This document shows positions 40,940-45,743 of a DNA stretch of 64,000 nucleotides, in pieces (within the stretch, counting starts at the first letter, position 1; every line of letters starts with the position of its first letter). A program made the translations under genes and the position numbers. Source of the stretch: Saccharothrix obliqua (GTDB taxonomy: Bacteria > Actinomycetota > Actinomycetes > Mycobacteriales > Pseudonocardiaceae); contig NZ_JAHXGQ010000005.1 in NCBI RefSeq assembly GCF_019375475.1, positions 1-64,000 on the forward strand, written 5' to 3'. A model generated the notes under the pieces. That model did not search any database, was not told the DNA's origin, and saw nothing but the letters and a program-made list of their open reading frames with translations.

Positions 40940-41015
40940 GCCGGTGTAGCTCAATTGGCAGAGCACTCGCCTTGTAAGCGAAAGGTTAGGGGTTCAAGTC
41001 CCCTCACCGGCTCCA
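40940..41015 (+). tRNA. tRNA-Thr (anticodon TGT), CCA encoded
   Basis: The cloverleaf can be drawn by hand. The acceptor GCCGGTG pairs with CACCGGC, the D arm is GCTC/GAGC, the anticodon loop is CTTGTAA, the T arm is AGGGG/CCCCT with TTCAAGT, and CCA is encoded at 41013-41015. The anticodon stem has a C-A mismatch at its outer pair (27-43). The 266 bp after it hold no recognisable gene. Confidence 0.93.
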
Positions 41016-41281
41016 AGCGCAGCGCCACCCCTGCCCGGGTCGCCACCAGCCAGGGGTGCCGGGCGGGTCGGTTTCCCGCCTTCGCCCACCGAGTTCGGGG
41101 CGTCGTCTGTTCGGGAGCCGCCGGCATGTGGCGGTACCGGACCGCCGCCGAGACCGCCCATTGATCGGGTTGCGGCCGTGCGCACTGGTTCCGGGACCGA
41201 TGCGCAGGCCGACTGCGAGTCGGCTCGTCGCGGAGCGCCCAGGGAATCCCGGTGCCGGTCCGCCTGTTGTCAGCCCGGGGG

Positions 41282-42097
41282 CTACTGGCCGGGGTCGTAC
41301 GGGCAATTAGGCGCAGCTACAGGGCACACATATGCGTCGTAAGGGGTGTCCAGTGAATCCAGGAACTCCTTGTGGCCTGTCCAGTCGTCCCGGCACCATC
41401 GGGCAACGCACAAGATGGTGACCTTGGCAGCACCGGCGTCGTGCAACGTGATGGCGGCTGACTGAGCCTTCGAGCCCGTCACCCAAGTGTCTTCGACGAG
41501 GAGTACGTGCTTCCCTTCGACCCGGTCCCGGTACCGGTCTTCGACGGTGAAGCGGTCTGCTCGCACCGCCCGGTCCGGCAACTCGTGGAAGTTGTCGGCC
41601 AGGGAGAGGAGGAAGCGACCTGATCTCGGAACTCCGCGGACCGTTCTGGCCAATTCGGCGACCGGGTGGCTCGCGCCCGGAGTTTTCGCCGATGGCACGA
41701 ACGTGATGCTCTCCCAACGGGAGCCCAGGACCGCCGGAATGCAGTGTTCATGGATGGTGCTGGCGGCAGCCACCATGTACGCCAAGTCCTGTGCGCACTT
41801 CTGTGCGGGCGGCGTGGCCTTGTACGCCCGCATGGTGTGCGCGGACTGGTCGACTCGTTTCGTCGTCGACCACCCTCGGACATATGTCAGGATGAGGGCG
41901 ACATCGGCGAGGCGTGCGCCGAACTCGGACTTATGCGTCAAGCACCTCGAGCACAAGCCGGCCGTCTCGGTCTCGGGCTGGCGACATACGCGACAAGTTC
42001 TCCCCACAACGTGGCGTGCATTCCGGAAGAACCCACCCACTCGTTGGACGAGTTCTTGCCGGGTTGCGTAGAAGAGCGGATCCGGCGAACCGGTCAT
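41282..42097 (-). CDS. ComF-like phosphoribosyltransferase, partner of the DprA-like protein
   Basis: The protein has 271 residues. An N-terminal zinc-finger-like pair (Cys35/Cys38 and Cys49/Cys52) precedes a type I phosphoribosyltransferase fold with the PRPP loop VLLVEDTWVTGSKA (198-211) and the strand ITFVPSAKTPG. The overall layout resembles ComF. Its ATG overlaps the DprA-like stop by four bases (ATGA), so both are made together. Composition is visibly less GC-rich than neighbours, suggesting acquisition. Substrate and role are unknown. Its operon has an SOS box, pointing to DNA damage or defence. Confidence 0.82.
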   Translation of the reverse strand: MTGSPDPLFYATRQELVQRVGGFFRNARHVVGRTCRVCRQPETETAGLCSRCLTHKSEFGARLADVALILTYVRGWSTTKRVDQSAHTMRAYKATPPAQKCAQDLAYMVAAASTIHEHCIPAVLGSRWESITFVPSAKTPGASHPVAELARTVRGVPRSGRFLLSLADNFHELPDRAVRADRFTVEDRYRDRVEGKHVLLVEDTWVTGSKAQSAAITLHDAGAAKVTILCVARWCRDDWTGHKEFLDSLDTPYDAYVCPVAAPNCPYDPGQ

Positions 42098-43086
42098 CCC
42101 TTGGCCAGGGCGAGGATCCCGGCTGCCGGGTTGTCGCTGCTCGTAATCCGCTTTACGTGGTCGATCGCCTCATCGGGCGTCTCGGCCTGGTACACCCCGG
42201 GCTTCCCCACCAGTGCGCGGCCCCAGTTGGTGCCGCGGACAACCGCGCCCATGAGGATCACCGGGCGACCATGGGCCACGGCGGACCGGGCCTGGATCCG
42301 AGTGCCGCTCAACTCGCCGGCTTCGACGATGATCGTGACACGGCCGTATGCGCTCATTGTTGCGTTCCGCATGGGAAAAGAGGACTTGCTGGGCGGGGAA
42401 TCCGGCCAGAACTGCGACATGACCAGCCCCTCGGCTGCGATTCTGTCCTGCAGTGAGCGGTTGGCCGCCGGGTAGTATTTCTGAATTCCCGTGCCAATCA
42501 CCGCCACGGTTCGCCCCCCGCGGTCGAGTGCGGTCACGTGGGCGGCCGTGTCGATTCCCTCGGCCAGACCGGACAGTACCGTGATCCCGCGGTCCACCAG
42601 TCGTTCCGCCAGGCTGACGGCCATCCGAAGTGCTCGTTCGGAAGCTCGCCGGGAGCCGACGACCGAGACAGCGTTCTCGCCAGGCAGCAACGTGCCGCGG
42701 GTGAACAGCACGGGCGGCACCTGATGCACATCGCGGAGTTGAGCGGGGTACTGGTCGTCCCGGAAGGTGTGGAACCGGAAGTCGGCATCCCTCCAGGTGT
42801 CGATCTCGCGTGCGGCTTCGACGAGCGCATCGGTGCCCAGTTCGGCCGCGAGCATTTCGGTGAACAGCGTGGGCGGGCGGTGCTGTTCCCAGAGCTTTCG
42901 TGCGCTCCCGATCTCCGTCACCTGCGCGGTGATCTGCGACCACGTCATGCCTTCGGGTCGCGTTCGCAGCAGCGCGACCAGCGCGGCTCGTTCCTCGGCG
43001 TCCCAGGTGTCCACGCCCGACAGCGTAGGGCGTGGCGAGATGTGGGTGCAGGTCGCGAGCAAGGTGCGGTGTTGGCCGGAAATCAC
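42094..43086 (-). CDS. DprA/Smf-like (SLOG superfamily) protein under SOS control
   Basis: The protein has 330 residues. A helical N-terminal part (about 25-110) precedes a DprA-type Rossmann domain: SVVGSRRAS (141-149), LSGLAEGIDTAAHVTAL (171-187), VAVIGTG, FPMRNATMSAYG and VEAGELSGTRIQARSA. It lacks the C-terminal winged helix of true DprA. The GTG at 43086 follows AGGGGG by 6 bases. GTG 43014 is an alternative, giving 306 residues. It is cotranscribed with the phosphoribosyltransferase. True DprA loads RecA on single-stranded DNA, whereas this stand-alone paralogue with a PRTase looks like a conflict or stress system. Confidence 0.84.
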   Translation of the reverse strand: MISGQHRTLLATCTHISPRPTLSGVDTWDAEERAALVALLRTRPEGMTWSQITAQVTEIGSARKLWEQHRPPTLFTEMLAAELGTDALVEAAREIDTWRDADFRFHTFRDDQYPAQLRDVHQVPPVLFTRGTLLPGENAVSVVGSRRASERALRMAVSLAERLVDRGITVLSGLAEGIDTAAHVTALDRGGRTVAVIGTGIQKYYPAANRSLQDRIAAEGLVMSQFWPDSPPSKSSFPMRNATMSAYGRVTIIVEAGELSGTRIQARSAVAHGRPVILMGAVVRGTNWGRALVGKPGVYQAETPDEAIDHVKRITSSDNPAAGILALAKG

Positions 43087-43111
43087 GCATCGCCCCCTTC
43101 GCGGCTGTGGA

Positions 43112-43127
43112 TCGAACGCATGTTCGA
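43112..43127 (-). promoter_or_regulatory. LexA (SOS) box
   Basis: TCGAAC-GCAT-GTTCGA fits the actinobacterial LexA consensus CGAACRNRYGTTYG at every fixed position on both strands. It lies 26 bp upstream of the DprA-like start and just downstream of the proposed -10, where a repressor would block initiation. Confidence 0.87.
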
Positions 43128-43133
43128 TGGTCG

Positions 43134-43162
43134 ATGTTAGGTCGCTGATGTTGCTGGTACAA
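43134..43162 (-). promoter_or_regulatory. Promoter of the DprA-PRTase operon
   Basis: On the minus strand, -35 TTGTAC (43157-43162) and -10 TAACAT (43134-43139) are separated by exactly 17 bp. The LexA box begins about 7 bp downstream of the -10. Confidence 0.62.
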
Positions 43163-43233
43163 GCCGTGTCATGTGGGCCACCCCGTGGTGGACGAGCCGG
43201 AACCCAGATGCCGGGGGTCAGGCGTCTCCGGGC

Positions 43234-44052
43234 TCAGCCCGAACGCCCGACGCGGGACACTCGCGTGGTGAGGCGCAGGAGTCGACCCTCCGCCGGCACG
43301 ACCACCAGGTGCGGCGGACGCCCGCCCGCCACCACGGGTTGCTCACCGACCCGCGACCCGCGTGCCTTGAGCACCGCCCCGTTCGGGAACGTGACGAGCA
43401 GGCTCGGCGGCGCACCCGGCACGTCCGCCGTGCTCAGCACCGCCCGCCGCCACCCCGCGTCGGCCACCGACCGGAACCACCGCCGCCACCCCAGCACGCG
43501 CCTGCCCTGCGCCAGCAGGCCCGCGCCGGCCGCCACCGCCACGAGCACGCAGCCGACGATCGTCAACGGGTCCCGGTTGGCCATGTCGGCGGTGCGCACC
43601 CGTCCCGGGTCGGCCGGGTCGTAGAACACCTCCACCGCGTCACCGACCGAGTACGGCTCGTACCCGTGGATCACCACGGTCCGCCGCGAGAACTCCACCT
43701 CGATGCTCGGCATACCCCGAGACGGGTGGTGCACGGCGGTGACCGTGGCAGTCGTCCGAGCACCGTGGTCGAGCAGCCACTGGGCGTCCCGTGCCTGCAT
43801 CACGAACAGCATGGCGCTGAACACCCCGAAGGCCACCCAGCACCCCAAGAGCAGCACCGAGTACCCCAGCCGCCGTCGCATCTTCGCGTGCAACGGCCCC
43901 GGGTCCAGCGTCTCGTCCGGCAACGACAGCACGTCCCGCGCCAGCACCGTGCCCACGGCGAGACCACGGCCGGCACGACGTCGAACCCGGCGCACGGCGT
44001 ACACGAGCGCCCCGCACCCGACGACGAGCACGAGCCAGCCGACCGCTCCCAC
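43234..44052 (-). CDS. DUF3592 membrane protein
   Basis: This 272-residue protein has membrane helices near the N terminus (3-20), at about 62-84 and about 165-185. A DUF3592-like beta domain (ATVTAVHH, GDAVEVFYDPADPGRVR) sits between the last two, and a cytoplasmic or outer tail follows. The start is GTG 44052. The function is unknown. It is monocistronic and returns to the high GC of the chromosome after the preceding island-like operon. Confidence 0.75.
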   Translation of the reverse strand: MGAVGWLVLVVGCGALVYAVRRVRRRAGRGLAVGTVLARDVLSLPDETLDPGPLHAKMRRRLGYSVLLLGCWVAFGVFSAMLFVMQARDAQWLLDHGARTTATVTAVHHPSRGMPSIEVEFSRRTVVIHGYEPYSVGDAVEVFYDPADPGRVRTADMANRDPLTIVGCVLVAVAAGAGLLAQGRRVLGWRRWFRSVADAGWRRAVLSTADVPGAPPSLLVTFPNGAVLKARGSRVGEQPVVAGGRPPHLVVVPAEGRLLRLTTRVSRVGRSG

Positions 44053-44117
44053 GCGCGATGCCTACCACGGCACGAGTAGACGCGGCTACGCCCACGGGGC
44101 GCAGCCGCGTCACACGG

Positions 44118-45743
44118 CTACTCCTTGTCCACGATCACCTGATAACCGACGCCGCCGATGTCCTGCCCGTTGACGGTCTGGACGACGTGCTGCACGTAGG
44201 TGCCCGGCGTGCCGCCGATGAACGTCAGCTCGGCGGTGAAGCGCTCACCCGGCTTGATCGGCAGCCCGGCCAGGGTGGCGTGCTTCGGGTCCGCGATCTC
44301 GACGGCCGTGCCGCCCGCCTGCTTCACGCCCTCGCCCTGGGCGCCCGTGGAGCGCCACAGCTCGAACAGGCGCGGACCCAGGTCCACGATCACGCGACCG
44401 TTGGACACCAGCGGCCGTTCGGGGCTGGTGATGACCAGGTCCGTCTTGACCGCGCGCTCCGTGGCGTTGCCGACCGCGAACCAGGACTTGCCCGGCGTGC
44501 CGGGCTTCACCCGGACGGTCTGGAAGTTGCGCCACGCGATGTTGTTGTTGCGCTTGGTGTTCAGCGCGGTGTCGGAGACCTCGGGGTACGTCATCGGGTC
44601 GCTCGCCGACACCCACCGGGCGAGGAGGCAGAAGTGGCCGGGGCCGGGCACCGGGTTCCACAGCACCTTCGCCACCGTCACGCCACCCGCGGGCACGGTC
44701 AGGGTCTGCTCGCCGATGTACGTCCAGTCGCCGTTGGTGACGGGGTTCCAGTTGGTCGACCCGCCCGGCGTGGTCCGGTAGACCTTGAGCGTGCCGTGGC
44801 CGTCGGCCGTCGCGTTCGGGCCCGGGTTGGTCAGGCGCACGTGGACCCAGTTCGCCTGGCCCACCACCGGCTGGATGCCGGGACCGCAGTCCGCCGTGGT
44901 CGGGCAGACCTTGATGTCCGGGCTGTTCCAGAACAGGCTGCCGGGGTTCGGTTCGACGCCCGTGTCGGTCACCTGGTCGCGGATGAAGACGTCGCTGCGC
45001 TTGCAGTCGCGCAGGAACTCGACGATCGCCGTGCTGACGCCGTTGCCGTCGGCCTGCGCCTGCGTGTAGAGGCCGCCGGTGGTGTTGGCGTAGTTCTGCA
45101 TGATCGGCACGATCGGCGTGGTGTACGCGCCCGACGTCGGCACGTAGACGGACGAGATCTTGATGCCGTTGCCCAGCGCCTGGTTCGCGCGCAGCGCCGC
45201 GTTGGTGTTGTCGGCCGCGGTGTAGGTGTCGTCGAAGCCGCCGGGGCGGGCGTCGGTGATCAGCACGGTGAGCCGGGTCGCGTTGGAGCGCCAGCCCGCG
45301 GTGAAGTCCGCGTTCTGCGGGCGGCCCGCGGCCGGGAGGCTGTTCACCACCGTGTTCAACGCCTCGTCCGACGCCTCCGGCTCCCCGCCGCCACCGCTCA
45401 CGGTCAGCGCGTTGACGCTCGCCACGACGGCCGCCTTGTTGTTGGCCGCGAAGTTGTTGACGACGGTGATGTTGTCCTTGAACGTGACCAGGCTCAGCCG
45501 GTAGTCGGAACCGGTCAGGTTCTCGACCTCCTGCGCGATCTGGTTGATGCCGGTCTTCAGGTTGGTGATCGCGCCGCCCATGCTGCCCGTGTCGTCCACC
45601 ACGAAGGCGACGTCCATCGGGCCGCACTTGCGCGGCGCGGGCGGCAGGGGCGCGGCGCCGGCGGGGCCGGTCGCCTGGGCGACGGACGCGGCCAGCGCCA
45701 ACGCGGCCAGGGCCGCCAGCGCCGGTCTCCGGAAGCGATGCAT
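44118..45743 (-). CDS. Secreted VWA-domain protein
   Basis: This 541-residue exported protein has a Sec signal peptide (residues 1-31, Ala-rich h-region, AGA-AP cleavage region). A von Willebrand A domain follows with a MIDAS motif in variant form DDTGSMG, then a metal-coordinating TxD region (ITDARPGGFDD). The C-terminal half is beta-rich with paired cysteines, probably an adhesion-type sandwich. The start is ATG 45743. The role is unknown. A dyad element shared with another secreted-protein locus lies 252 bp upstream. Confidence 0.82.
   Translation of the reverse strand: MHRFRRPALAALAALALAASVAQATGPAGAAPLPPAPRKCGPMDVAFVVDDTGSMGGAITNLKTGINQIAQEVENLTGSDYRLSLVTFKDNITVVNNFAANNKAAVVASVNALTVSGGGGEPEASDEALNTVVNSLPAAGRPQNADFTAGWRSNATRLTVLITDARPGGFDDTYTAADNTNAALRANQALGNGIKISSVYVPTSGAYTTPIVPIMQNYANTTGGLYTQAQADGNGVSTAIVEFLRDCKRSDVFIRDQVTDTGVEPNPGSLFWNSPDIKVCPTTADCGPGIQPVVGQANWVHVRLTNPGPNATADGHGTLKVYRTTPGGSTNWNPVTNGDWTYIGEQTLTVPAGGVTVAKVLWNPVPGPGHFCLLARWVSASDPMTYPEVSDTALNTKRNNNIAWRNFQTVRVKPGTPGKSWFAVGNATERAVKTDLVITSPERPLVSNGRVIVDLGPRLFELWRSTGAQGEGVKQAGGTAVEIADPKHATLAGLPIKPGERFTAELTFIGGTPGTYVQHVVQTVNGQDIGGVGYQVIVDKE

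Follow-up and report, generated by a model that had tools for sequence, protein, structure and literature searches.

A LexA-box-preceded pair of DprA-like and zinc-ribbon phosphoribosyltransferase genes behind a tRNA-Thr gene of Saccharothrix obliqua, and its likeness to known toxin-antitoxin and defence pairs

The gene pair and its LexA operator

The window, by which we mean the whole 64,000-nucleotide stretch analysed (positions 1 to 64,000 of contig NZ_JAHXGQ010000005.1 of Saccharothrix obliqua), contains two adjacent minus-strand genes, of which the first encodes a DprA-like protein and the second a phosphoribosyltransferase (PRTase) (Table 1). The two-gene operon with an ATGA overlap that was proposed in a preliminary description is borne out by the sequence, and the overlap probably couples translation of the two genes. 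The lower GC content noted there also holds: in 500-base steps it is 0.65-0.68 in the operon, 0.67-0.69 in the tRNA region on the left and mostly 0.70-0.80 further out. The tRNA-Thr gene, which was the sole match of an Rfam scan, indeed adjoins the operon, but it sits past the operon 3' end and not upstream, as had been described.

Table 1. Features of the locus, in positions of the window
Feature	Position	Strand	Remarks
tRNA-Thr(tgt)	40940-41015	plus	left edge of the variable interval
Strain-specific interval, pair and DUF3592-like gene	41016-44115		from synteny breaks versus relatives
Zinc-ribbon ComF-type PRTase gene	41282-42097	minus	271 aa; PRPP loop, four Cys
ATGA stop/start overlap	42094-42097	minus	plus strand 'tcat'
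DprA-like (SLOG/Rossmann) gene	42094-43086	minus	330 aa, GTG start; Pfam PF02481
LexA operator, perfect palindrome TCGAAC-N4-GTTCGA	43112-43127		pattern search
Weak promoter-like hexamers TTGTAC (43157-43162) and TAACAT (43134-43139)	43134-43162	minus	by eye
DUF3592-like gene	43234-44052	minus	outside the conserved pair, within the strain-specific interval

The perfect LexA box reported earlier is confirmed. The operator TCGAACGCATGTTCGA ends 25 bp before the GTG start of the DprA-like gene and has one exact copy in the 64-kb window, compared with none in 100 shuffles. The same pattern occurs at 23 sites genome-wide and its reversed control pattern at none. It agrees with the LexA consensus tCGAAC-N4-GNNCGa given for S. 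venezuelae (PMC9380542). Exact cores of the box also lie upstream of lexA and recA in the same genome, and the operator stands at the start of the operon as it does at these two genes, while the canonical dprA locus of this genome has no box within one mismatch. The -35/-10 pair of the preliminary description stands only in part: hexamers TTGTAC-17-TAACAT are present with the 17-nt spacing, but by eye they agree with the consensus at no more than 7 of 12 bases, and a promoter scan found none. A TAnnnT hexamer follows the box directly in 11 of 31 compared sequences, the window being one of the 31; in the window itself there is none behind the box, and TAACAT lies just ahead of it instead. The genome also carries a second LexA-family gene (G000:C48:370662-371264), whose 3.6-kb locus (L169) contains no exact SOS box and one site with one mismatch.

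The DprA-like protein matches Pfam DNA_processg_A (1.4e-56) and the PADLOC model of ShosA (2.5e-62). The latter model also scores the genome's own canonical DprA (4.1e-52), which is encoded by a separate DNA_processg_A gene elsewhere, and matches in 185 of 200 genomes of the order at E <= 1e-30. Since it also matches canonical DprA, the name ShosA is not diagnostic for the window protein. The closest solved relative is canonical DprA 3uqz (8e-35), which we take to be DprA of S. pneumoniae, followed by ShosA 9vzo (7e-22). At 163.2 bits the protein, the only one scored in this comparison, falls below the NCBIfam DprA equivalog cut-off of 191.15. A quick tree set the DprA-like proteins of the pairs apart from canonical DprA and from the ShosA of E. 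coli phage with an SH-aLRT value of 98, to be read with the very long branches of these two outgroups, for which the tool raised a warning. A missing winged helix, as described earlier, would agree with the short C-terminal tail, as about 50 residues follow the Rossmann domain versus about 96 in the canonical DprA of the genome; the Pfam comparison does not add to this, since no winged helix was reported in canonical DprA either. By analogy, we propose that the DprA-like protein may be a guard or antitoxin and a DNA sensor.

The second protein had been described as a ComF-like PRTase with a zinc finger. Its PRTase and zinc-ribbon Pfam matches all remain under the Pfam cut-offs, the GntX/ComF models (2.9e-6 and 4.8e-4) remain under their curated cut-offs, and the PADLOC ShosT model matches residues 188-238 alone (5.5e-4). 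No HAD match at E <= 0.5 and no helicase match was found with Pfam in its 271 residues. Despite the weak family matches the description holds up, as four cysteines (C35, C38, C49 and C52) and the PRPP-loop motif (VLLVEDTWVTG in the window) are invariant in 22 aligned sequences, window included. This alignment also keeps, among others, Y92-K93, H116, C119, R176 and D203 of the PRPP loop, and in a set of 52 sequences C49, C52, Y92, K93, H116, C119, D203, T204, W205 and G208 are among the residues kept. PADLOC model PDLC03962 matches 18 of the 22 aligned PRTases at E <= 0.01 (best 9.8e-8). We read the second protein as a probably active zinc-ribbon PRTase of the ComF type and, by analogy, as a candidate effector or toxin. 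A weak second ComF-like match lies elsewhere in the genome.

Pairing, operator conservation and genomic sites

In a survey of 297 genomes of the family (PRTase at E <= 1e-5, best place per genome), the PRTase was found in 53 and adjoined a DprA-like gene in 51 of these. The two unpaired places lie at a contig end (G011) and beside a DprA-like gene in two pieces (G158). Conversely, 51 of 63 DprA-like places (E <= 1e-45) adjoin this PRTase. Eleven of the other 12 were inspected, the one left out being a second copy in G211. Four of them precede another, double-zinc-ribbon ComF-type PRTase (ribbons by eye), in one case in two frames; one has a partial PRTase match (G180), three have no PRTase match (G177, G134 and G039), one contains pieces of both genes (G188), one has no PRTase match and part of the DprA-like gene in one frame (G145), and one runs into a contig edge (G104). 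The pairs with the second PRTase (L214-L216 in G021, G283 and G288, and L218 in G076) have related DprA-like proteins that are 42-47% identical to that of the window. Pairing was seen in all 30 best family loci, window included, and in the best 80 of 169 relatives, all titled as Actinobacteria (hereafter the named loci), a DprA-like gene lies directly upstream of the PRTase gene in 75. The remaining five comprise a pair with a broken PRTase (L133), three loci without a DprA-like gene and one with an unlike DprA on the opposite strand. In 36 of the 75 paired loci the PRTase start overlaps the DprA stop by 4 or 1 nt. The co-occurrence of the two genes across genomes is thereby documented in both surveys and, judged by this arrangement, the DprA-like and PRTase genes form a unit.

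A third conserved gene was considered and rejected. The 133 immediate neighbours of the 75 paired loci, called with a coding heuristic, have matches at E <= 1e-5 to 135 Pfam families, and the most frequent family occurs in six proteins; integrase occurs in two. PADLOC families, including BREX, restriction-modification and PD-T4-6, were found in one protein each and one family in two. By these raw counts the neighbours are diverse, and enrichment in defence islands is not claimed.

Breakage seems to be uneven between the two genes. A broken PRTase gene next to an intact DprA-like gene was found at L088, L099, L108, L110 and L133, which makes five against one for the reverse among the 80 named loci, and a larger table gives 10 against one (109 rows, with some genomes counted twice). 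This excess is suggestive of toxin-like decay and no more than suggestive. The three PRTases without a DprA-like gene and the one with the unlike opposite-strand gene speak against a strict toxin.

For the SOS box, 69 of the 80 named loci were usable; the other 11 were dropped because they had no adjacent DprA-like gene, less than 300 bp upstream or a late profile start. The core CGAAC-N4-GTTCG was found within about 300 bp upstream exactly at 14 of the 69 loci and within one mismatch at 33, which leaves 36 without such a box. Random segments of the same loci (200 sets) gave means of 0.13 for the exact core and 2.36 for a core within one mismatch, with maxima of 2 and 7. Among 60 permuted palindromes the runner-up reached 3, and with other spacers the counts did not exceed 4 for exact cores and 6 for those within one mismatch. 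The family loci, counted separately, show an exact core upstream in 14 of 30, a number that overlaps with the named loci and is not independent of them. When mapped on the DprA tree the presence of the box required 15 changes versus 24.4 in shuffles, at least 6 of them forced by well-supported branches. The box is thus clustered but does not mark one clade, which implies that it was lost or gained repeatedly. The three pairs with the second PRTase in the genus of the window have boxes with 0, 0 and 1 mismatch, 37-52 bp before the start of the DprA alignment. An exact box is also present in G158 and G180. No box within one mismatch precedes the four DprA-like genes of G177, G134, G039 and G188, which lack an intact PRTase; the numbers in this last comparison are small. 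Judged by these boxes, about half of the pairs share the SOS control.

The pair lies at a variable site. The gene left of the tRNA-Thr gene is common to 23 of 25 genomes of the genus, window included, and the right side was read in 20 of 22 relatives. In these, homology breaks off at the 3' end of the tRNA or slightly beyond it and, in 17 of 20, starts again at 44113-44147 of the window, after a gap of about 120-330 bp in seven, 0.7-1.0 kb in four, about 2 kb in two and 5-6 kb in four. The gene at 44118, presumably VWA-like (by eye), is missing or a fragment in two of the 20. One relative (G283) has no right flank within 12 kb and carries an integrase gene directly behind the tRNA gene with an FtsK/SpoIIIE-like gene further on. 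In the window the interval is about 3.1 kb long and holds the pair and the DUF3592-like gene, which scores 24.5 bits against the Pfam DUF3592 cut-off of 25.3 and has no match at E <= 1e-10 in the 24 other genomes of the genus. No integrase was found among these three genes. An intact integrative element carrying the pair was considered and rejected, since a repeat of the tRNA end was sought near this copy and none was found. More generally, the stretch behind tRNA-Thr(tgt) (41016-44115; L068-L087) is a hotspot of gene turnover in the genus, and relatives carry there an integrase with an FtsK/SpoIIIE-like gene, an AAA-ATPase with a phosphotransferase, in some cases chemotaxis-like genes (by eye), or almost nothing. 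One hotspot protein (L084:425-1438, G261) looks TIR-like at its start when read by eye; Pfam gave no match for it and PADLOC a short, weak one.

Matches to the PRTase were also found in 11 of 72,556 plasmid records, 8 of them spanning 80% or more of the protein. Among 50,697 phage records 4 have a match, and these represent two Gordonia phages that were each deposited twice. Thirteen pattern matches in viral contigs contained no confirmed relative. In both phages the pair lies within a few kb of an integrase gene. In phage Vasanti an exact box core precedes the DprA-like gene by 43 bp, and the best site in phage Bosnia has 3 mismatches. A Mycolicibacterium plasmid (NZ_CP122995.1, L175) has the pair beside a restriction-modification set, and in a Mycobacterium plasmid (NZ_CP097321.1, L177) DNA methyltransferase, Vsr and GIY-YIG nuclease genes lie between the DprA gene and a partial PRTase gene. 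Judged by its distribution and sites, the pair is patchy, acquired and mobile. Its presence in 53 of 297 genomes and the variable tRNA-Thr site are not those of a core-genome gene.

This distribution bears on two alternative readings. Firstly, the family names DprA and ComF and the weak ComF match recall an ordinary competence pair, but the genome has a separate canonical dprA without a LexA box, the distribution is patchy and mobile, and both proteins score under the NCBIfam curated cut-offs. A role as competence genes is therefore very improbable and was rejected. Secondly, the pair could be a selfish or exclusion module (addiction or superinfection exclusion) that was left at tRNA-Thr by an integrative element and whose SOS control serves the cycle of that element. 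The variable site with the integrase and FtsK/SpoIIIE-like genes of G283 would suit this, as would the phage and plasmid copies, one phage copy having a box. Given that neither a tRNA-end repeat nor an integrase accompanies the copy in the window, we consider this origin rather improbable; in any case it differs mainly in the beneficiary from the defence module that we propose below.

Relation to characterised DprA-PRTase pairs

Several pairs of this composition have been characterised. A P2-borne DprA-PRTase pair is reported to protect E. coli from T7 and lambda, and DprA homologues are described as the antitoxins in shosTA, syrTA and rqlHI (PMC9122126). In a review that covers the work of Pu et al. 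(2025) on the ShosTA mechanism, ShosT is summarized as a PRTase and pyrophosphatase that disturbs purine metabolism, with ShosA as DNA-binding antitoxin and T7 Gp0.7 as trigger (PMC12593503). The ShosTA triggers named so far in the literature consulted are phage proteins, Gp0.7 and, from a listing, a single-stranded DNA-binding protein. Tool-based reports place ShosTA in Actinobacteria, their prophages and plasmids (PMC10023795, PMC10482375). The preliminary description had suggested that the PRTase makes a nucleotide or DNA-end signal that is sensed by the SLOG protein. The characterised pairs, as described in these sources, point the other way, with the PRTase as toxin and the DprA-like protein as antitoxin or sensor (PMC9122126, PMC4670107, PMC12593503). 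The broader idea of an acquired, LexA-box-controlled DprA-PRTase module that is kin to known defence or toxin-antitoxin pairs is supported.

The pair was compared with ShosTA, of which ShosT (8zvb, 9w2p and 9w2q) and ShosA (9vzo) have solved structures. ShosTA of the P2 type has the same order, with the DprA-like gene first and the adjacent PRTase gene second, and is also phage-borne; a DprA-like gene lies beside the PRTase gene in the window and in most relatives. ShosA and the window DprA-like protein align over 193 columns (hhalign probability 99.4), but ShosT aligns with the window PRTase over 47 columns around the PRPP loop (probability 81). At 424 aa, the ShosT of the P2-like phage 10W has HAD and PRTase matches under the Pfam cut-offs and a PADLOC ShosT score of 3.4e-294, in contrast to the zinc-ribbon PRTase of 271 aa in the window, which lacks the N-terminal HAD of the P2 type. 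It also lacks a whole-protein ShosT match, and the pair is therefore kept outside ShosTA. In the 147 bp that precede ShosA in one P2 record, no LexA box of the E. coli type was found at up to 2 mismatches. Burkholderia phage Mana (PDLC03961/03962) resembles the window in having a short PRTase and an upstream DprA-like gene, but by eye its PRTase has no four-Cys ribbon and it matches ShosT at 1.2e-41, versus 5.5e-4 for the window PRTase. At 225 aa this ShosT-type PRTase looks too short for a HAD domain, so HAD may not be universal, and its absence alone is not unique to the window. By analogy, the pair would most likely work like ShosTA.

In RqlHI the PRTase domain of RqlH is genotoxic, RqlH expression induces the SOS response, and the DprA-homologous RqlI restrains RqlH (PMC4670107). 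The RqlH PRTase is fused to a RecQ-like helicase, which the window PRTase lacks. PsyrT has the same RecQ-like helicase-PRTase layout, and PRTases of the ComF/GntX type combine a zinc ribbon with a PRTase. The latter match the window PRTase weakly, and the window family differs from them in its regular DprA-like partner and frequent LexA box. The Caulobacter higBA operon is also LexA-repressed, with a toxin and antitoxin unrelated to those of the window, and provides a precedent for LexA-controlled toxin-antitoxin operons (PMC13384398). No report of LexA control of DprA-PRTase pairs was found in the literature searched. As ShosTA-type pairs in Actinobacteria are already known, the new element would be the LexA control.

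LexA control would equally suit a repair gene. DprA-like proteins are reported to bind single-stranded DNA and to interact with RecA (PMC9122126), and ComF/GntX models are among the best matches of the PRTase. The pair could thus be an SOS-induced repair module, with the DprA-like protein as a loader of RecA onto single-stranded DNA and with a PRTase that aids repair or nucleotide salvage and is not toxic. This seems unlikely, since the pair is too patchy in the family for a core repair gene and also occurs in phages and on plasmids, a separate dprA and a weak second ComF-like match are present elsewhere in the genome, and DprA-PRTase relatives are described as toxin-antitoxin or defence pairs.

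Proposed mode of action

We propose that the pair is probably a mobile, two-gene, toxin-antitoxin-like module for abortive defence under SOS control, with the guard and effector roles of the DprA-like protein and the PRTase inferred from the characterised pairs. LexA would keep expression of the operon low. Phage replication or damage would expose single-stranded DNA, on which RecA filaments would trigger LexA cleavage, and both proteins would then be made together. The DprA-like protein would bind the PRTase and keep it inactive until it engages abnormal single-stranded DNA or protein-DNA complexes, upon which the PRTase would be released. The freed PRTase may consume PRPP, disturb the nucleotide pool and stall replication, and as the cell stops, the phage or plasmid would be stopped too. 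Since the related toxin RqlH itself is reported to induce the SOS response, LexA control could make this a feed-forward switch. Several observations weigh against the defence module, among them these: the DprA-like protein is closer to the solved canonical DprA 3uqz than to ShosA 9vzo, the window PRTase is marginally ShosT-like, and the 36 named loci mentioned above and phage Bosnia lack a close box.

If the module works in this way, the LexA operator at many relatives would tie this kind of immunity to the SOS response directly and in a testable way, and a zinc-ribbon PRTase that has no HAD domain would show the minimum activity needed. More tentatively, Actinobacteria and some of their phages may have in common a class of LexA-gated DprA/zinc-ribbon-PRTase immune modules that is large and so far unrecognised. 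In such modules the SOS response would arm the system, the DprA-like protein would sense single-stranded DNA, and damage by the PRTase would feed back on SOS as a commit-to-die switch. Related DprA-like genes behind an operator of this kind have at least two different ComF-type PRTases as partners.
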